Below are positions 24,424 to 31,145 of a DNA stretch of 64,000 nucleotides, piece after piece. The stretch is from Pseudomonadota bacterium. GTDB lineage: Bacteria > Pseudomonadota > Gammaproteobacteria > Halothiobacillales > Halothiobacillaceae. Position 1 is the first letter of the stretch; every line of letters starts with the position of its first letter. Position numbers and translations under genes: made by a program. The notes beneath the pieces were generated by a model, which made no database searches, was not told the origin of the DNA, and saw only the letters and a program-made list of their open reading frames with translations. The stretch lies in NCBI GenBank assembly GCA_021801265.1, contig JAJYYE010000010.1:310001-374000 (forward strand). Direction: 5' to 3'.

Positions 24424-24621
24424 TCAACGCGATAATAAACGACGGCGAATCCAACGCATTAACCCACCCAGCGCGGGCACACGGCTATACACCTGCTCCG
24501 CAGTATCCCAAAAATCAATATGTTCACGCACTAAACCACACTCATCAAACGCCACCCGACTCACCCTGGTGATGCAGCCAGCCCCAGCATCAAAATTTGT
24601 GTCAGAGCGCGCGCCATAAAA
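24424..24621 (-). pseudogene. Remnant of a SnoaL-like (NTF2-fold) gene, C-terminal part only
   Basis: In the 656-base space between leuA and the MerR regulator, the minus strand holds an open stretch of about 65 codons ending at a TGA (24424-24426). It reads TRVSRVAFDECGLVREH, then IDFWDTAEQVYSRVPALG, then LMRWIRRRLLSR, which is the C-terminal pattern of SnoaL-like proteins common in photolyase and LitR gene clusters. Upstream it meets an in-frame TAA (24622) with no start codon or N-terminal domain, so the gene is truncated. The rest of the space (24167-24423 and 24625-24743) shows nothing else I can name. Confidence 0.65.
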
Positions 24622-24743
24622 TTACGCTTGAGCACAGTCAATCACAGTACCGTCCCATTAAAATTGGGGTTCAAACCAAAAATCCTAAAAATAGACACTG
24701 AATCACTCACCAACCCAAGGCCATAAATCAAAAAAACGACTAC

Positions 24744-24759
24744 CCCCTGCATGCAGGGG
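24744..24759. promoter_or_regulatory. Perfect 16-bp palindrome upstream of the MerR regulator
   Basis: CCCCTGCATGCAGGGG is a perfect inverted repeat ending nine bases before a -10-like TACAAT (24769-24774). It would cover the -35 region of a promoter for the regulator gene whose ATG is at 24823. It is a plausible operator, for autoregulation or another factor. No consensus -35 is visible, so the promoter may need an activator. Confidence 0.45.
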
Positions 24760-24822
24760 AAAGCCTGCTACAATTTTCGATACAAAAGTTATACGCTTAG
24801 AACAATTCCCGACGAGACCCGC

Positions 24823-25893
24823 ATGAACGATCCCATTCAGCATGAATTCGATTCTGATTCGGCGCAAAACGATGTGCAGGCACAGGATGACCTCCAAGCG
24901 GCCAATCCATCAGACGGGCTGGAACCCGCTGAGCTGATCAACAGTGAAGAGGGGCTGTTCCCGATCCGCGCCGTGGCGCAGCTGACCGGCATTAACCCAA
25001 TTACCCTGCGCGCCTGGGAACGGCGCTATAAATTGATATGCCCGACACGAACGCCCACAGGGCACCGCCTGTACAGCACGACTGACATTCAACAAATTCA
25101 ACGGGTTCAATCATTATCCGCGCAAGGCGTGGGCTTTCCACAGATTGCCACCTTGCTTGGGCGTGAGTCGCGCAACACACAAACCAAACCACGATTCACC
25201 CAACCCTCGCCCTTTAACTCAGAGATCGACGATCAATCCGTACAAAATGGGCCGTTTGAAAAAACCCAAGAAACTGATTTTCAAGCGAAGAGTCTCATTG
25301 AGCGTTTGAAGCAGGCCGTCATGCACCTCGATCCGCTCGCGCTGCGAGCCGTTGAACAGCAAGCGCTCTTGTGGCTCCCACCCGAATTTGTCATGCGCGC
25401 GATTTTGATTGAAGGACTCAATCAGCTCGAACAACGGGAGGCATGGCCAGATCGTGATCTGAGCTTGCATTGGCTTGGCCACCATCTGCGTCAACGGCTG
25501 GAATGGTGGCTATTTCAACAAGCACGCAAACCCGAACCCGACCGACCGCTTACTCTCATCGACACACGGGAAGCGGATCGCCCCTTGAGAGCACAAGAAT
25601 TATTACTTGTTATGGGCCTAGCCCCAAATTTCACCGTAAAACTACTCCCCCCAACACTGTCTGAAGCGCAACGGGTGCGGCTCATTAACCGTTGGCAAGC
25701 GCGCCACTGGATTCGTCTGCTACAACCCACCGATGAGGCCGGCCCCGGTCCCGGCTCATTTTTATCCGGCACCACTCGCCTGCATTGGTGTCAATTACTC
25801 CCGGGCGAACACCCCTTGACCATCACCGCCGCCGGCGTGTGTCAAGGCGGCGTCATTCGATGTCAGCAATATTTGCTGAGACAATTGGCTTAA
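24823..25893 (+). CDS. MerR-family regulator of the LitR type with degenerate cobalamin-binding domain
   Basis: 356 residues. A MerR helix-turn-helix lies at residues 45-115 (FPIRAVAQLTGINPITLRAW, ERRYKL, PTGHRLYSTTDI). The C-terminal half (about 155-350) has the helical and Rossmann-like layout of the B12-binding part of LitR/CarH regulators (LTLIDTREADRPLRAQELLL), but the cobalamin histidine motif (E/DxHxxG) is absent. In LitR homologues lacking this motif, light sensing is reported in Pseudomonas putida to depend on a short LOV protein; such a LOV gene is the next gene here. Likely represses or activates photoprotective genes. Start chosen at the ATG after GACGAG. Specific name not given. 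Confidence 0.8.
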   Translation: MNDPIQHEFDSDSAQNDVQAQDDLQAANPSDGLEPAELINSEEGLFPIRAVAQLTGINPITLRAWERRYKLICPTRTPTGHRLYSTTDIQQIQRVQSLSAQGVGFPQIATLLGRESRNTQTKPRFTQPSPFNSEIDDQSVQNGPFEKTQETDFQAKSLIERLKQAVMHLDPLALRAVEQQALLWLPPEFVMRAILIEGLNQLEQREAWPDRDLSLHWLGHHLRQRLEWWLFQQARKPEPDRPLTLIDTREADRPLRAQELLLVMGLAPNFTVKLLPPTLSEAQRVRLINRWQARHWIRLLQPTDEAGPGPGSFLSGTTRLHWCQLLPGEHPLTITAAGVCQGGVIRCQQYLLRQLA

Positions 25894-25917
25894 GGGGTTG
25901 CGGCAGCTGAATGCTGA

Positions 25918-25976
25918 CCTGGCAGCCTATCGGACTTGCCCATCCGTTGCGAGACAAAGTCCGACAGGCTGCCAGG
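25918..25976. repeat. Inverted repeat, copy B of the AGCCTGTCGGACT family
   Basis: 20-base arms (25918-25937 and 25957-25976, CCTGGCAGCC..., one mismatch) around a 19-base loop. It lies between the LitR-like gene and the LOV gene and would form a strong hairpin that could reduce read-through. The core GGCAGCCTATCGGACTT / AAGTCCGACAGGCTGCC matches copies A, C and D. Confidence 0.8.
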
Positions 25977-26011
25977 CACAAACCATTACCCTAAAATCAG
26001 TCCGCAGATGC

Positions 26012-26020
26012 TGGTATGAT
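26012..26020 (+). promoter_or_regulatory. Extended -10 promoter candidate for the LOV gene
   Basis: TGGTATGAT contains the extended -10 TG dinucleotide followed by TATGAT (26015-26020), 40 bases before the ATG at 26060. No good -35 is present, as is acceptable for extended -10 promoters. It lies after the hairpin that separates the LOV gene from the regulator. Confidence 0.4.
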
Positions 26021-26059
26021 TCCTTTCGATTTAACTATTCGCACAGGGGTGGGATGACG

Positions 26060-26545
26060 ATGCTGGATTCCAAATTACTGCAAAAAGCAGTGGATGCATC
26101 CAACGATGGGATCGTCATCGCTGAACAGGAAGGCAGCGATAATATCCTGATTTACGCCAATGCCGCATTTGAGCACCTAACAGGCTTCACCGCAGACGAA
26201 ACCTTGTATCAAGACTGCCGTTTTCTACAGGGTGATGATCGAGATCAAATCGCGCTAACGGAAATTAAGACAGCCATCCGGGAAGGAAGACCGACCCGGG
26301 TTACCGTTCGTAATTACCGCAAAGATGGCAGTTTGTTTTGGAACGAACTCTCCATTACGCCCATTTTCAACGAGACCGACCAGATCACCTATTTTATTGG
26401 GGTGCAACGTGATGTGTCCGATCTGGTACGCCTCCAAGAAGAAAACCAACACCTCAGAGCCAGATTGGCACTGCTTGAAGCCAACACACCCCCAACACCA
26501 ACCGTTCAACCCCCACAAAACACTGTGGCACCTGCGAAGTTTTGA
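26060..26545 (+). CDS. Short LOV-domain blue-light photoreceptor
   Basis: 161 residues. A single LOV (PAS) domain: VDASNDGIVIAEQEG at the N-terminus, then YQDCRFLQGDDRDQ with the flavin-adduct cysteine at residue 53, NYRKDGSLFWNELSI, and FIGVQRDVS, followed by one C-terminal helix (about 125-145). It closely follows the pattern of the short LOV proteins of Pseudomonas putida, whose cysteine is also number 53. It has no kinase, GGDEF or HTH output, so it must act on a partner. The start at 26060 aligns with that family; ATG 26054 is an alternative. Neighbouring LitR-like regulator is the likely partner; pilB follows after 51 bases. Confidence 0.92.
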   Translation: MLDSKLLQKAVDASNDGIVIAEQEGSDNILIYANAAFEHLTGFTADETLYQDCRFLQGDDRDQIALTEIKTAIREGRPTRVTVRNYRKDGSLFWNELSITPIFNETDQITYFIGVQRDVSDLVRLQEENQHLRARLALLEANTPPTPTVQPPQNTVAPAKF

Positions 26546-26572
26546 CTATAGTATGAAACATTCGCCTATAAA
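26542..26572 (+). promoter_or_regulatory. Candidate long-spacer promoter for pilB
   Basis: TTGACT (26542-26547) and TATAAA (26567-26572) are separated by 19 bases (18 if CTATAA is the -10). A 19-20 base spacer is typical of promoters controlled by MerR-family regulators. An inverted repeat TATAG (26547-26551) / CTATA (26566-26570) spans the spacer. It begins at the end of the LOV gene and lies 25 bases before the pilB ATG. Confidence 0.4.
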
Positions 26573-26596
26573 CGGAATTATTGGTTACCCCACGCT

Positions 26597-28291
26597 ATGA
26601 CTCCTCCCGCCATTACAGGCCTGCTGGCCGCTTTAGTTAAAACCAACGTGATCGAGCCGCAGCGCGCGCTTGAAATTTTAGAAAAATCCCGCGCCAATAA
26701 AGAACCCCTGCTGCAAACTCTGATGGGCAATGGCGTTTCAGCGCTAAAAATTGCACGCGCCGCCTCTCAAAATTTCGGGCTGCCTCAAATAGATCTGGAT
26801 TCTTTCGATACAACCGATCTGCCGATTAATGTCGTTCCGGCGAAATTGTTAGAGAGTGGCAATGCACTCCCTTTGCGCAGACGGGGACGACGTTTAACCG
26901 TAGCGATGGCCGACCCCTCGGATTTAGGCATTCTGGAAAACTTCCGGTTCAGCACCAACCTCACCATTGAGGTGGTAGTGGCCGAGGCGACTAAAATTGC
27001 CCGCCTGCTCGAAGAGGCCGCGAATAATTCCATGGCCGGGTTGGCCGATCTGGACGATGATCTCGCCAATATTCAGATCGAGAGCGATAGTTTTGCCTCC
27101 GATGAAAAAAGTGACGATCCACTTCAAGATGACATTGTCGTCAAATTTGTCACCAAAGTACTCACCGATGCCATTCGCCGCAAAGCCTCCGATATCCATA
27201 TTGAACCCTATGAAAAACAGTTTCGGATTCGTGTGCGAATCGACGGGATCTTAACGGAAATCCCTCAGCCGCCCCGCCAATTGGCCGACCGCATTGTCTC
27301 TCGACTCAAGGTGATGAGCCGGATGGACATTTCCGAACGGCGCATTCCGCAAGATGGTCGAATTAAACTCAAATTATCAGCCGGCCGTTCCATCGACTTC
27401 CGGGTCAACTCCTGCCCGACGCTGTTCGGCGAGAAAATCGTGCTTCGAATTCTCGATCCCACCAGCGCCCAACTCGGGATCGACTCCTTGGGTTATGAAG
27501 AAGACCAGAAGCAGCTGTACATGAAGGCATTGAATCGCCCCTATGGCATGATTCTTGTCACCGGCCCCACCGGTTCGGGTAAAACCGTTTCGCTGTATAC
27601 GGGACTGAACATTCTCAACACAATGGATCGCAACATTTCTACCGCCGAAGACCCGGCTGAAATCGTGGTACCCGGCATCAATCAGGTGAATGTCAACGCG
27701 AAAATCGGACTCACGTTTGCTGCGGCACTGCGTGCGTTTCTACGTCAGGATCCCGATGTCATCATGGTCGGTGAGATCCGGGATTTGGAAACAGCTGAAA
27801 TTGCGATTAAAGCCGCCCAAACCGGCCACTTGGTGCTCTCCACGCTCCATACCAATGACGCGCCACAAACCTTGACGCGCTTGCTGAACATGGGTGTGCC
27901 GGGTTATAACATCGCATCATCCATCAACCTGATTATCGCCCAACGTCTGGCGCGGCGTCTGTGCAACACCTGCAAAACAGTGGACCATGTGCCGGATGAA
28001 GAACTCATCCGCGAAGGATTTAACCCGGCAGATGTACAAGCGGGCATGAAAATCTTCAAAGCGGTAGGCTGCGATCAGTGCACCAATGGCTACAAAGGCC
28101 GGATGGGCATTTATCAGGTGATGCCGGTCTCAGAAGAGATGGGACGTATTATCATGCGGGGCGGAAATTCGATGGAATTGGCCGAGCAGTCGGCCAAAGA
28201 AGGCATTAATGATTTAAGGCAATCCGGCATTCGCAAAGTGAAAGCCGGTATCACTAGCCTCGAAGAACTCAATCGGGTGACCAAGGATTAA
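26597..28291 (+). CDS. pilB: Type IV pilus assembly ATPase PilB
   Basis: 564 residues. N-terminal MshEN-type domain (about 1-150), then the secretion ATPase domain with Walker A GPTGSGKTVSLYTG (about residue 325), Asp box, Walker B VIMVGEIRDLETAE, His box STLHTNDAPQTLTR, and a zinc site made by CNTC and CDQC. It powers pilin polymerisation at the inner membrane. First gene of pilB-pilC-pilD, with 11- and 22-base gaps. A promoter candidate lies just upstream. Confidence 0.97.
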   Translation: MTPPAITGLLAALVKTNVIEPQRALEILEKSRANKEPLLQTLMGNGVSALKIARAASQNFGLPQIDLDSFDTTDLPINVVPAKLLESGNALPLRRRGRRLTVAMADPSDLGILENFRFSTNLTIEVVVAEATKIARLLEEAANNSMAGLADLDDDLANIQIESDSFASDEKSDDPLQDDIVVKFVTKVLTDAIRRKASDIHIEPYEKQFRIRVRIDGILTEIPQPPRQLADRIVSRLKVMSRMDISERRIPQDGRIKLKLSAGRSIDFRVNSCPTLFGEKIVLRILDPTSAQLGIDSLGYEEDQKQLYMKALNRPYGMILVTGPTGSGKTVSLYTGLNILNTMDRNISTAEDPAEIVVPGINQVNVNAKIGLTFAAALRAFLRQDPDVIMVGEIRDLETAEIAIKAAQTGHLVLSTLHTNDAPQTLTRLLNMGVPGYNIASSINLIIAQRLARRLCNTCKTVDHVPDEELIREGFNPADVQAGMKIFKAVGCDQCTNGYKGRMGIYQVMPVSEEMGRIIMRGGNSMELAEQSAKEGINDLRQSGIRKVKAGITSLEELNRVTKD

Positions 28292-28302
28292 GGGAGAACA
28301 CC

Positions 28303-29541
28303 ATGGCCGTTGCAGCAACCGCAAAGAAAAAACCCAAGGACGAAAAAACCGTCTTTGTTTACGATTCAAAAAATAAGGATGGCAAACTCGTTAAAGGTGA
28401 GATGAGCGCCCACAATGAGATGGTTGTTCGCGCCGAAGTCCGTCGTCTTGGGCTCACGGTGATCCGGGTCAAGAAAAAACCCAAACCCCTCTTTGCCAAT
28501 ACCGGCACGATCAACGCGAAAGACATTTCTGTTTTTGCTCGGCAACTGGCCACGATGATGACGGCCGGCTTGCCCATAGTTCAAGCGCTCGACATCATCG
28601 CGCAAAGCGCCGAAAAAGTGGCGATGCAAGAACTTATTACCACGGTAAAAAATGATCTGGAAAGCGGCTTAACCCTAGCAGACGCCTTGGACAAACATCG
28701 GCGCTACTTTGATGAGCTCTTCGTGAATCTTGTCCGCGCGGGGGAAAATTCTGGCTCGCTCGAGCTCGTACTCGACCGCATTGCCATCTACAAAGAAAAA
28801 AGTGAAAGCCTGAAAGGGAAAATCAAGAAAGCCTTGTTTTACCCGATCGCAGTCGTGGTGGTTGCGTTTATTGTGACAGCCATCTTGCTGATTTTCGTGA
28901 TCCCCCAGTTTAAAGAGCTGTTTGATGGCTTCGGCGCAACCCTCCCCGCCTTTACACTTTTCGTCATTGGGTTATCCGAAACCTTTCAAAAGAATTGGTA
29001 TTTTATTTTTGGTGGCATTGGCTTGGCCATCTTCCTGTTTGTGTATGTCAAACGGCGTTCCGATCCGTTCAATCACTTTCTGGATCGCTTGATTCTGAAA
29101 ATGCCAATTTTCGGTCCTCTGACAGAAAAAGCGGCGATTGCCCGCTTCGCTCGAACGCTGGGCACCATGTTTTCCGCTGGGGTTCCCTTGGTTGAGGCCA
29201 TGCCGCCAACTGCGGGCTCCACGGGCAATGCGATGTTCAAAGATGCCGTCATGAACATGCGCGATATCATCGCAGCAGGTTCGCCCCTCAAAGTTGCGAT
29301 GCAGCAATCCAAACTATTCCCGGTGATGGTGGTGCAAATGGTCGCAATTGGTGAAGAAACCGGTGCGCTCGACACCATGCTGGGCAAAGTGGCGGATATG
29401 TATGAAGAGGAAGTCGACAACATGGTCGATGCCATGTCGAGCTTGCTGGAACCGATGATTATGGCGTTTTTAGGGGTCGTTGTTGGCGGTCTGGTGATCG
29501 CCATGTACCTGCCCATTTTCAAACTCGGTTCCGTGGTTTAA
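28303..29541 (+). CDS. pilC: Type IV pilus inner-membrane platform protein PilC
   Basis: 412 residues with two GspF-type cytoplasmic domains (about 75-195 and 280-400) and three membrane helices (about 180-205, 230-250, 385-408). Conserved segments FARQLATMMTAGLPIVQAL and FARTLGTMFSAGVPLVEA. The N-terminus is Lys-rich (AATAKKKPKDEK). PilC couples the PilB motor to the growing pilus. A GGGAG ribosome site is eight bases before the ATG. Confidence 0.97.
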   Translation: MAVAATAKKKPKDEKTVFVYDSKNKDGKLVKGEMSAHNEMVVRAEVRRLGLTVIRVKKKPKPLFANTGTINAKDISVFARQLATMMTAGLPIVQALDIIAQSAEKVAMQELITTVKNDLESGLTLADALDKHRRYFDELFVNLVRAGENSGSLELVLDRIAIYKEKSESLKGKIKKALFYPIAVVVVAFIVTAILLIFVIPQFKELFDGFGATLPAFTLFVIGLSETFQKNWYFIFGGIGLAIFLFVYVKRRSDPFNHFLDRLILKMPIFGPLTEKAAIARFARTLGTMFSAGVPLVEAMPPTAGSTGNAMFKDAVMNMRDIIAAGSPLKVAMQQSKLFPVMVVQMVAIGEETGALDTMLGKVADMYEEEVDNMVDAMSSLLEPMIMAFLGVVVGGLVIAMYLPIFKLGSVV

Positions 29542-29563: not shown

Positions 29564-30460
29564 ATGATGACCCTCATCCCGACATGGGCAAGTTTTTTTG
29601 CAGAATATCCGCTGGCCTGGTTGATATTCGCCACGGTACTCGGTTTACTGATTGGCAGCTTTTTAAATGTCGTGATCCACCGCTTACCCATCATGATGGA
29701 ACACGGCTGGCGACAAGATTGCCGCGAATTACTGGAAGTTGCACCCACATCACCCGCGCCCGCAGTGTATAACCTCATAACACCGCGCTCAGCTTGCCCG
29801 AACTGTCAAACCCCGATTAAATCCTGGCAAAACATACCGGTCATTAGCTGGGTCGCATTACGCGGCCAATGCGCGCACTGTGGCCACAAAATCAGTATTC
29901 AGTACCCCATGATTGAATTATTGAGCGGATTGCTCACCGTACTCGCTGCCTGGAAATTTGGGGTATCGGCTACCACACTTGCCGCCTGGATATTTGGCTG
30001 GGTTTTGCTTACTGCAGCAGTCATTGATTTAAAAACCACGCTCCTCCCCGATGTTTTAACCCTACCCTTGATGTGGCTAGGAATTTTTCTGGCCTTAATC
30101 GGCTCTGGAACGATCATTTCGCTCAAGGAGGCCGTGATCGGGGCAATGGTGGGATATCTCGCCCTGTGGAGTGTGTATTGGTTATTTAAACTCGCCACGG
30201 GGCGGGAAGGCATGGGTTATGGAGATTTCAAACTTCTTGCCGCATTGGGTTCATGGCTGGGGTGGCAGCAGCTCCCTTTAGTCTTAATTATCGCAGCAGG
30301 TGTTGGCGCCTTGGTGGGTATGGGTATGGTTTTGTTTTTGAAACATGACCAACGCATCCCGATCCCATTTGGACCTTATTTGGCGAGTGCGGGGCTTCTG
30401 GGGTTTTATCTTGGCGAGCCAATCTTGCGGTTTTATTTGGGCAATGCGGGCCTAAATTAA
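29564..30460 (+). CDS. pilD: Prepilin leader peptidase / N-methyltransferase PilD
   Basis: 298 residues, polytopic membrane aspartyl protease. The cytoplasmic loop has the two Cys pairs ACPNC and CAHC of the methyltransferase half; catalytic aspartates are in VIDLKTTLLPD and MGYGDFKLLAALG. Removes the leader from prepilins and methylates the new N-terminus. Either of two adjacent ATG codons (29564, 29567) could start it. Last of pilBCD, with coaE following, as in Pseudomonas. Confidence 0.97.
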   Translation: MMTLIPTWASFFAEYPLAWLIFATVLGLLIGSFLNVVIHRLPIMMEHGWRQDCRELLEVAPTSPAPAVYNLITPRSACPNCQTPIKSWQNIPVISWVALRGQCAHCGHKISIQYPMIELLSGLLTVLAAWKFGVSATTLAAWIFGWVLLTAAVIDLKTTLLPDVLTLPLMWLGIFLALIGSGTIISLKEAVIGAMVGYLALWSVYWLFKLATGREGMGYGDFKLLAALGSWLGWQQLPLVLIIAAGVGALVGMGMVLFLKHDQRIPIPFGPYLASAGLLGFYLGEPILRFYLGNAGLN

Positions 30461-30530: not shown

Positions 30531-31145
30531 ATGGGATTAATCATTGGCTTAACTGGCGGCATTGCCAGTGGCAAGAGCACGGTAGCGAGTTTTTTAGAAA
30601 CCCAGAATGTCCCCATTATCGATACTGATCAGTTGAGTCGGGAATTGGTTGAACCGAATCGACCCGCGCTGAAAGCCATCACCGATGCCTTTGGTCAAAC
30701 GATACTACAACCCAATGGGCAACTGGATCGAGCGGCGTTGCGGACCAAAATTTTTAGCAATGCGACATCGCGTAAAACGTTAGAAGCAATTTTACATCCC
30801 GCCATTCGAGCACTCGCTCAACACCGCGCCCTGGAAGCGGCGGCCCAATCGCCCTATGTGCTGGTCGTGATCCCTTTGCTCGCCGAACCCGGGGTGTATC
30901 CGAATTATCGCTGGCTAAACCGGGTTATTGGCATTCGAGCAACGCCGAATCTCCAACGACATCGTTTAATGCGACGCCCTGGAATGAATGCCGAACGCGC
31001 GGACCAAATGCTCGCTGCACAAAGCACCGATGAACTCCGCGCAACCATCGTGGACGATTGGCTCGACAACACCGGCGATCTGGCGCAACTCGAAGAGCAA
31101 ACGATGCGTTTGCACCAACGACTCCTGACAGCCTGTCGGACTTAA
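30531..31145 (+). CDS. coaE: Dephospho-CoA kinase CoaE
   Basis: 204 residues. Final step of coenzyme A synthesis. P-loop GLTGGIASGKSTVA (residues 6-19), IIDTDQLSREL, LHPAIRA and the VIPLLAEPG segment are typical. The usual pilBCD-coaE order holds, but yacG does not follow. The last codons (Leu-Thr-Ala-Cys-Arg-Thr-stop) are encoded by the left arm of repeat copy C, so the natural end of the protein may have been replaced. Confidence 0.96.
   Translation: MGLIIGLTGGIASGKSTVASFLETQNVPIIDTDQLSRELVEPNRPALKAITDAFGQTILQPNGQLDRAALRTKIFSNATSRKTLEAILHPAIRALAQHRALEAAAQSPYVLVVIPLLAEPGVYPNYRWLNRVIGIRATPNLQRHRLMRRPGMNAERADQMLAAQSTDELRATIVDDWLDNTGDLAQLEEQTMRLHQRLLTACRT

Follow-up and report, generated by a model that had tools for sequence, protein, structure and literature searches.

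Does a bacterium that reads as a sulfur oxidizer carry a blue-light switch, and if so, which genes would answer to it? The question is raised by two neighboring genes, litR and lov, in a Pseudomonadota bacterium of the family Halothiobacillaceae (assembly GCA_021801265.1, contig JAJYYE010000010.1). They lie in the stretch of 64,000 nucleotides analyzed here (positions 310,001 to 374,000 of the forward strand), which we call the window and from whose first letter positions are counted. An initial annotation had read them as a two-gene blue-light switch, a LitR-like regulator with a short LOV photoreceptor, in a chemolithoautotroph. The window supports such a host: since SoxX, SoxA, SoxB, phosphoribulokinase, and a cbb3 oxidase are encoded in it, the organism reads as a sulfur-oxidizing autotroph. 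As for the switch, the gene pair, the predicted fold, the loss of the cobalamin motif, and a profile match all stood, and its blue-light function is assigned by homology. We consider it very probable that litR-lov is an anti-repressor switch for blue light, belonging to the class II LitR/short LOV kind.

The photoreceptor proved to be as first described, a LOV protein of 161 residues encoded 166 nt past the litR stop on the same strand, with its adduct cysteine, Cys53, in the motif YQDCRFLQG. Pfam reports PAS_9 at residues 15–121 and no second kind of domain; this is a single LOV domain without an effector domain, which is what defines a short LOV. Cys53, Q57, N85, N95, and Q116 are kept in all 14 aligned LOV rows, and the last four are what we take to be flavin-pocket residues. 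By analogy with the protein of Pseudomonas mendocina, we infer that the window LOV binds flavin mononucleotide (FMN) and undergoes a photocycle. Its best sequence matches in the PDB are the short LOVs 7r4s, 7r5n, and 3sw1 (E down to 7.8e-57), and the PDB short LOVs align over residues 1–135 or more. Among these best matches is PpSB1-LOV of Pseudomonas putida (3sw1, 5j3w; PMC6047819), which has its length class and the motif YQDCRFLQ in common with the window LOV. At residue 66, the window LOV has Leu, whereas 7r4s and 29lw have Arg in the alignments. Since Leu66 replaces an Arg that presumably slows dark recovery, a faster photocycle than that of PpSB1-LOV is expected. PpSB1-LOV also has Arg at this position, to judge by the variant name R66I (PMC6047819).

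The regulator begins with a MerR helix-turn-helix (HTH) domain (PF13411, MerR_1; residues 47–112, E 1.4e-14), as class II LitRs do. The NCBIfam CarH model matches residues 42–109 (E 1.1e-14, below the model cut-off), phmmer against the PDB ranks CarH first with the alignment on the HTH, and Pfam B12-binding_2 gives a weak match under its cut-off (E 0.047). An AlphaFold2 model built from 33 aligned regulators (mean predicted local distance difference test score 83, predicted template modeling score 0.62) shows a four-helix bundle at residues 148–234 followed by an alpha/beta domain at 243–355, so that the B12-binding_2 domain, weak in Pfam, is clear in the predicted structure. Foldseek places Thermus thermophilus CarH at the top (E 2e-12). 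With VIA-align, the model matches 5c8f over the whole chain (Z 15.1, rmsd 12.4 over 253), and its C-terminal half matches 3whp, the C-terminal domain of LitR, within residues 154–354 (Z 14.5, rmsd 3.0 Å, 181 aligned); the first row with an unrelated name is AerR (Z 12.9), followed by photocobilins (Z 12.5). Because both programs rank CarH/LitR first, the C-terminal half belongs in the CarH fold group and not in an unrelated MerR subfamily. Domain order and predicted fold are thus common with the class I CarH/LitR of T. thermophilus (5c8d-f, 3whp; Z 14.5–15.1).

The histidine motif [ED]xHxxG, which marks CarH and class I LitRs as adenosylcobalamin (AdoB12) photosensors, is absent from the window LitR, so a B12-type fold without this motif, as originally noted, is confirmed. 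The motif is also absent from the best litR-type match of each of 51 named loci having one; the same search does detect it in L043 and L048, neither of which has a short LOV in the flanks fetched (here and below, L numbers are loci and G numbers genomes). When C-terminal profiles were compared with hhalign, the regulators of Halothiobacillus and Guyparkeria gave a modest match to Pseudomonas-type LitRs whose genes lie close to a short LOV gene (E 5e-6, Prob 86), and the Pseudomonas-type profile matched PDB CarH with an E of 2.6e-13. Full-length identity of the window LitR to the aligned Pseudomonas-type relatives is 21–26%. On these profile comparisons, it appears to have diverged from the class II LitRs of Pseudomonas, to which it seems related.

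A CarH-like C-terminal domain could also mean that LitR itself senses light, through cobalamin or another chromophore, with the LOV protein as an accessory, and class III LitRs are reported to change spectrally in light although their C-termini are unlike known functional domains (PMC9758184). Here, we regard this as very unlikely. Besides the missing motif, no His occurs in residues 241–265, near where the alpha/beta domain has its first strand; in P. putida, B12 is reported as not required (PMC9758184); and a short LOV adjoins litR in each of the 23 family genomes that bear a LOV.

This linkage is the second line of evidence for the anti-repressor switch. The LOV search covered 57 genomes, the window's own included, at a threshold of E 1e-15, and 27 of these are Halothiobacillaceae. 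A LOV match was found in 25 genomes, 23 of them Halothiobacillaceae with a short LOV (23 of the 27), and in all 23, lov lies immediately 3′ of litR on the same strand. The gap measures 4–166 nt in 22 rows; it is unmeasurable in L036, where the litR frame continues. Since litR is directly upstream of lov in 23/23, the pairing is more than chance. In addition, we used as named loci the best 80 of a profile scan of genome contigs (more exist), with flanks of 10 kb or less. The flank contains a litR-type match in 51 of these 80 and none in 29 (13 Halomonadaceae, 12 Ectothiorhodospiraceae, and 4 others), where its absence is not always informative because some contigs are short. Outside Halothiobacillaceae, the nearest litR-type match is opposite in strand to lov in 43 of 43 (among the 51). 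The first description had presented such switches as little described in chemolithoautotrophs; an autotrophic host is supported, but the kind is not unprecedented, given the P. mendocina pair and the related pairs of numerous gammaproteobacterial loci (51 of the best 80 named).

It might be argued that LOV and LitR are neighbors by ancestry only, the Halothiobacillus LOV acting with another partner, such as PilB, or with none, and LitR answering to something else. A promoter-like element stands in front of lov, the 29 named loci above are without a litR-type match, and 21 of the 23 short-LOV family genomes, the window included, have the pilus gene pilB next after lov on the same strand. We hold this to be unlikely: litR linkage is complete among the lov-bearing genomes of the family, whereas pilB linkage is not, other genes following lov in G011 (L246). 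In the second exception, G026 (L247), the contig ends 1.25 kb past lov. In Pseudomonas, litR and short lov genes are neighbors as well, and an interaction of their products has been demonstrated (PMC9758184).

Two further observations concern LOV genes elsewhere. The lov genes of Halomonas and Thioalkalivibrio (L098, L105, L108, L126, L136, and similar loci) are without a litR-type match in the fetched flanks. In L073–L077 of the Guyparkeria group, a second LOV domain, 47–50% identical to the window LOV, lies in a huge open frame of 1347–1385 codons.

The third line of evidence is a putative operator at litR. The regulator had been annotated from 24424, which is wrong, as the longest open frame begins at 24751. 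Because a conserved operator and −10 occupy 24766–24795, and because near relatives begin with MNDP, MNNP, or MSNP, equivalent to ATG 24823, this ATG is most likely the start, giving 356 residues. Throughout the family, a −10-like element upstream of litR is overlapped by TACA-type repeats 11–13 and 11 bp apart: GCTACAAT is present in 18 of 22 readable upstream rows and GCTACACT in 1 more, while L031, L041, and L042 fit the scheme poorly, and L037 is unreadable. The core GATRCAN4TTRTAC occurs at one place in the window's own genome, 24779–24794, at litR. Over the 27 family genomes, 19 core matches, one in each of 19 genomes, are upstream of a litR-type gene, 2 precede bdlA-like genes, and 5 are elsewhere; no common gene was seen at L167, L168, L172, L177, and L184. 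In G005, which has two partial, similar, and non-identical litR-type genes at contig ends (L185, L037), the core match sits before the second one, L185. A matrix of 21 sites, litR sites of relatives among them, finds the litR operator as the sole window match above 9 bits. The strict form TNTACA-N5-TNTACA is unmatched in the own genome, its control giving 0 and 1. CarH operators are tandem 11-bp repeats that, as at the window litR, overlap the promoter (PMC9304148), and only some of the litR repeat units fit the TnnACA of CarH strictly. A putative site for a class II LitR binding TRTACA-type operators as a repressor is thus conserved in the family, and litR appears to repress itself from an operator overlying its own −10.

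MerR-family proteins can also activate, from sites in the promoter spacer. LitR could on this ground be an activator or dual regulator, with light lowering expression. The position of the putative operator, which overlies and follows the −10-like element and is not within the −35/−10 spacer, makes this highly improbable, and PmlR2 of P. mendocina is a repressor in vitro (PMC9758184).

The repressor reading owes most to that Pseudomonas pair. In the 2022 report on P. mendocina, PmSB-LOV is an anti-repressor: once lit, it associates with PmlR2, whose DNA binding is thereby inhibited; gel-shift and surface plasmon resonance (SPR) results disagreed, the authors preferring SPR, and pmlR2 RNA changed only 1.4–1.5-fold in light (PMC9758184). 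Like litR and lov, the two genes are neighbors, "adjacently encoded" there and clustered with PME15565 (PMC9758184). Both systems consist of a MerR HTH with a degenerate B12-type C-terminal half, a TACA-containing operator, and a LOV protein of 148–161 residues with Cys53 and without an effector domain. The P. mendocina pair also shares, with members of the Halothiobacillaceae, neighbors or apparent targets of short-chain dehydrogenase/reductase (SDR), FAD-oxidoreductase, CMAS/UfaM-like, and photolyase type. G011 is a case in point: beside litR it encodes a CMAS (UfaM-like) protein, DUF3833, a chalcone-isomerase-like protein, SnoaL, and SDR, a set that recalls the P. mendocina light cluster (SDR, FAD-oxidoreductase, UfaM; PMC9758184). 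A divergent SDR gene faces litR in G011 and Guyparkeria, a divergent SDR with a SnoaL-like gene is upstream in L083, L247, and L246, and leuA takes this place in the window and in L023, L024, L025, L027, and L078. In contrast to the Pseudomonas pair, the window litR and lov stand in tandem on one strand ahead of pilBCD, the repeats are spaced by ~11 bp in the window family instead of forming TGTACA-N12-TGTACA, litR appears to bear its own operator, and BLUF and BdlA-like genes join the apparent targets in relatives. The window LitR differs from CarH in having no E/DxHxxG, and light sensing is apparently delegated to a separate flavoprotein. In BluR/BluF of Escherichia coli, the photoreceptor is of the BLUF and not of the LOV type. 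There, likewise, a MerR-family protein stands under a separate blue-light receptor (PMC9758184). Among the matches listed in a literature search that covered subscription papers thinly, nothing was found on this Halothiobacillaceae locus; as far as this search shows, the tandem order of the two genes across the family is new, as are the operator and the targets it appears to have, and the kind of switch itself is known.

By analogy with P. mendocina, in flavin chemistry, LOV-LitR contact, and derepression alike, the switch would work as follows. In the dark, a LitR-type repressor would occupy the TACA repeats at litR, where they overlap the promoter −10; in relatives, it would also sit at the promoters of sensory and photoprotective genes. 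Blue light would form the Cys53-FMN adduct in a LOV dimer, and the light-state LOV would bind LitR and remove it from the DNA, with target transcription lasting until the adduct decays.

Candidate targets came from the relatives. In G016 and G020, the core lies 67–70 nt 5′ of a gene for a BdlA-like protein, with two PAS domains and a methyl-accepting chemotaxis protein (MCP) domain. Such a gene is found in 11 of the 27 genomes at E 1e-60, and in 9/9 loci of the Guyparkeria group (g4), it is preceded by three 11-bp-spaced repeats with 0–2 mismatches; of 2700 shuffled bdlA-like upstream regions, none has a match at 1 mismatch and 2 have one at 2. The BdlA-like gene of G002 is preceded by an exact three-repeat match. 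This three-repeat pattern was composed after the litR and bdlA-like upstream regions had been seen, so matches there are partly by construction. With up to 1 mismatch, it occurs at 46 places over the 27 genomes (30 for the reversed control), of which the surroundings of the recurrent places and some singles were read; its 9 exact matches are upstream of litR (3) and bdlA-like genes (6). The bdlA-like finding itself arose from the litR-derived core, for which bdlA-like genes were not used, and those at BLUF and FAD-oxidoreductase genes arose from the three-repeat pattern, for which neither was used. Three-repeat sites stand 5′ of a BLUF gene in five genomes (G001, G002, G004, G006, G009), with a photolyase-type gene after BLUF in all of these except G004, for which none was seen in the stretch fetched. 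In four more (G014, G023, G024, G026), they stand 5′ of a FAD-dependent oxidoreductase gene, near which a photolyase-related gene occurs in G014, G023, and G024. Names rest on Pfam for the genes of L208, L217, and L226, and on similarity judged by eye for the remaining targets. BLUF is above the cut-off in 7 of the 10 Halothiobacillus (g1) genomes.

A three-repeat match in the own genome (C7:131771, L213) was dropped, because it recurs in G001 and G003 along with the coding sequence around it, a PilZ-like open reading frame named by eye. A TACA-repeat site in G001, G002, and G009 (L227–L229) adjoins a divergent response-regulator/sensor operon, with no link to light seen.

Several results weigh against the switch or its proposed reach. 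The core total of 26 places compares with 29 for the reversed control over the 27 genomes, that is, no enrichment, so that the evidence for the core is its position and not its number; the published Pseudomonas operator TRTACA-N12-TGTAYA, with up to 2 mismatches, shows no signal, with 129 matches per strand in the own genome against 125 for its reversed control. No repeats precede the BdlA-like gene of G010, and of the seven BLUF loci, the upstream repeats are degenerate in G003 and absent in G007. In the own genome, the strict core is found only at litR, with no second target identified, BLUF is not matched, and no operator is visible upstream of its one PF00875 photolyase gene. As to the regulator, the C-terminal match to Pseudomonas-type LitRs is modest, and the Halothiobacillus/Guyparkeria C-terminal profile alone finds zero PDB sequences.

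Table 1 Features of the litR-lov locus (positions in the window).
Feature	Position	Strand	Basis or remark
Extended −10-like element TGCTACAAT of litR	24766..24774	+	Direct reading; overlapped by the putative operator
Putative LitR operator TACAATTTTCGATACAAAAGTTATACG, with three TACA-type repeats at spacings of 12 and 11 bp	24769..24795	+	Upstream conservation in the family
litR, MerR/LitR-CarH-type regulator, 356 aa, without E/DxHxxG cobalamin motif	24823..25893	+	
Inverted repeat in the litR-lov spacer, 20-nt arms, 95% complementary, 19-nt loop	25918..25976	none	
Extended −10-like TGGTATGAT, possibly a separate promoter for lov	26012..26020	+	Direct reading
lov, 161-aa short LOV photoreceptor with Cys53 as adduct cysteine; effector domain not found	26060..26545	+	
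−10-like TATAGT between lov and pilB	26547..26552	+	
pilB, type IV pilus assembly ATPase (T2SSE, MshEN domains)	26597..28291	+	Starts 51 nt past lov
pilC (T2SSF domains)	28303..29541	+	
pilD, prepilin peptidase (Peptidase_A24)	29564..30460	+	
coaE-type kinase	30531..31145	+	Closes the compared downstream block; named by reading, without a family search

Some smaller elements accompany the two genes (Table 1). The possible −10 of lov reads TATGAT in 9 of the 10 Halothiobacillus (g1) litR-lov spacers and TATCAT in the remaining one. The inverted repeat in this spacer folds as RNA with a z of −3.8 and is not apparent by eye in the spacers of relatives; it was rejected as a dispersed element, being a single genomic copy with up to 3 mismatches allowed. 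Just 5′ of the litR −10, a palindrome, CCCCTGCATGCAGGGG, lies at 24744–24759 and also scores as a minus-strand terminator-like site.

Downstream, the lov-pilB gap is 51–142 nt in 16 of the 19 measured rows and −4, 389, and 468 in the others. The −10-like TATAGT may give pilB its own promoter, and promoter-like sites around lov-pilB are not above shuffle expectation. The spacer (26546–26596) also holds a block like AAACGGAATTATTGG, strongly conserved in Halothiobacillus and possibly a 5′ leader element. A LitR-type operator controlling pilB was considered and rejected, as the matrix scan of this spacer gave nothing above 9 bits. Because no operator is seen at pilB, light control of pili is speculative. 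A wider proposal is that the switch has been re-aimed at surface behavior: litR-lov stands ahead of pilBCD, in Guyparkeria and one Halothiobacillus the operator would also govern the BdlA-like chemoreceptor gene and in other relatives BLUF as a second photoreceptor, and in the window's own organism blue light would raise litR-lov transcription reading into pilBCD, with pilus assembly and attachment following light. We put this forward tentatively, as a doubtful possibility.

A switch whose biochemistry was worked out in Pseudomonas very probably has a conserved version in sulfur-oxidizing autotrophs. With a readable litR operator and predicted photolyase-type, BLUF, and chemoreceptor targets, the question of why non-phototrophs sense light becomes testable. 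A LOV-controlled repressor placed over a BLUF gene would, if true, amount to a two-tier hierarchy of blue-light receptors, and the linkage to pilus genes offers a hypothesis tying light to biofilm formation.

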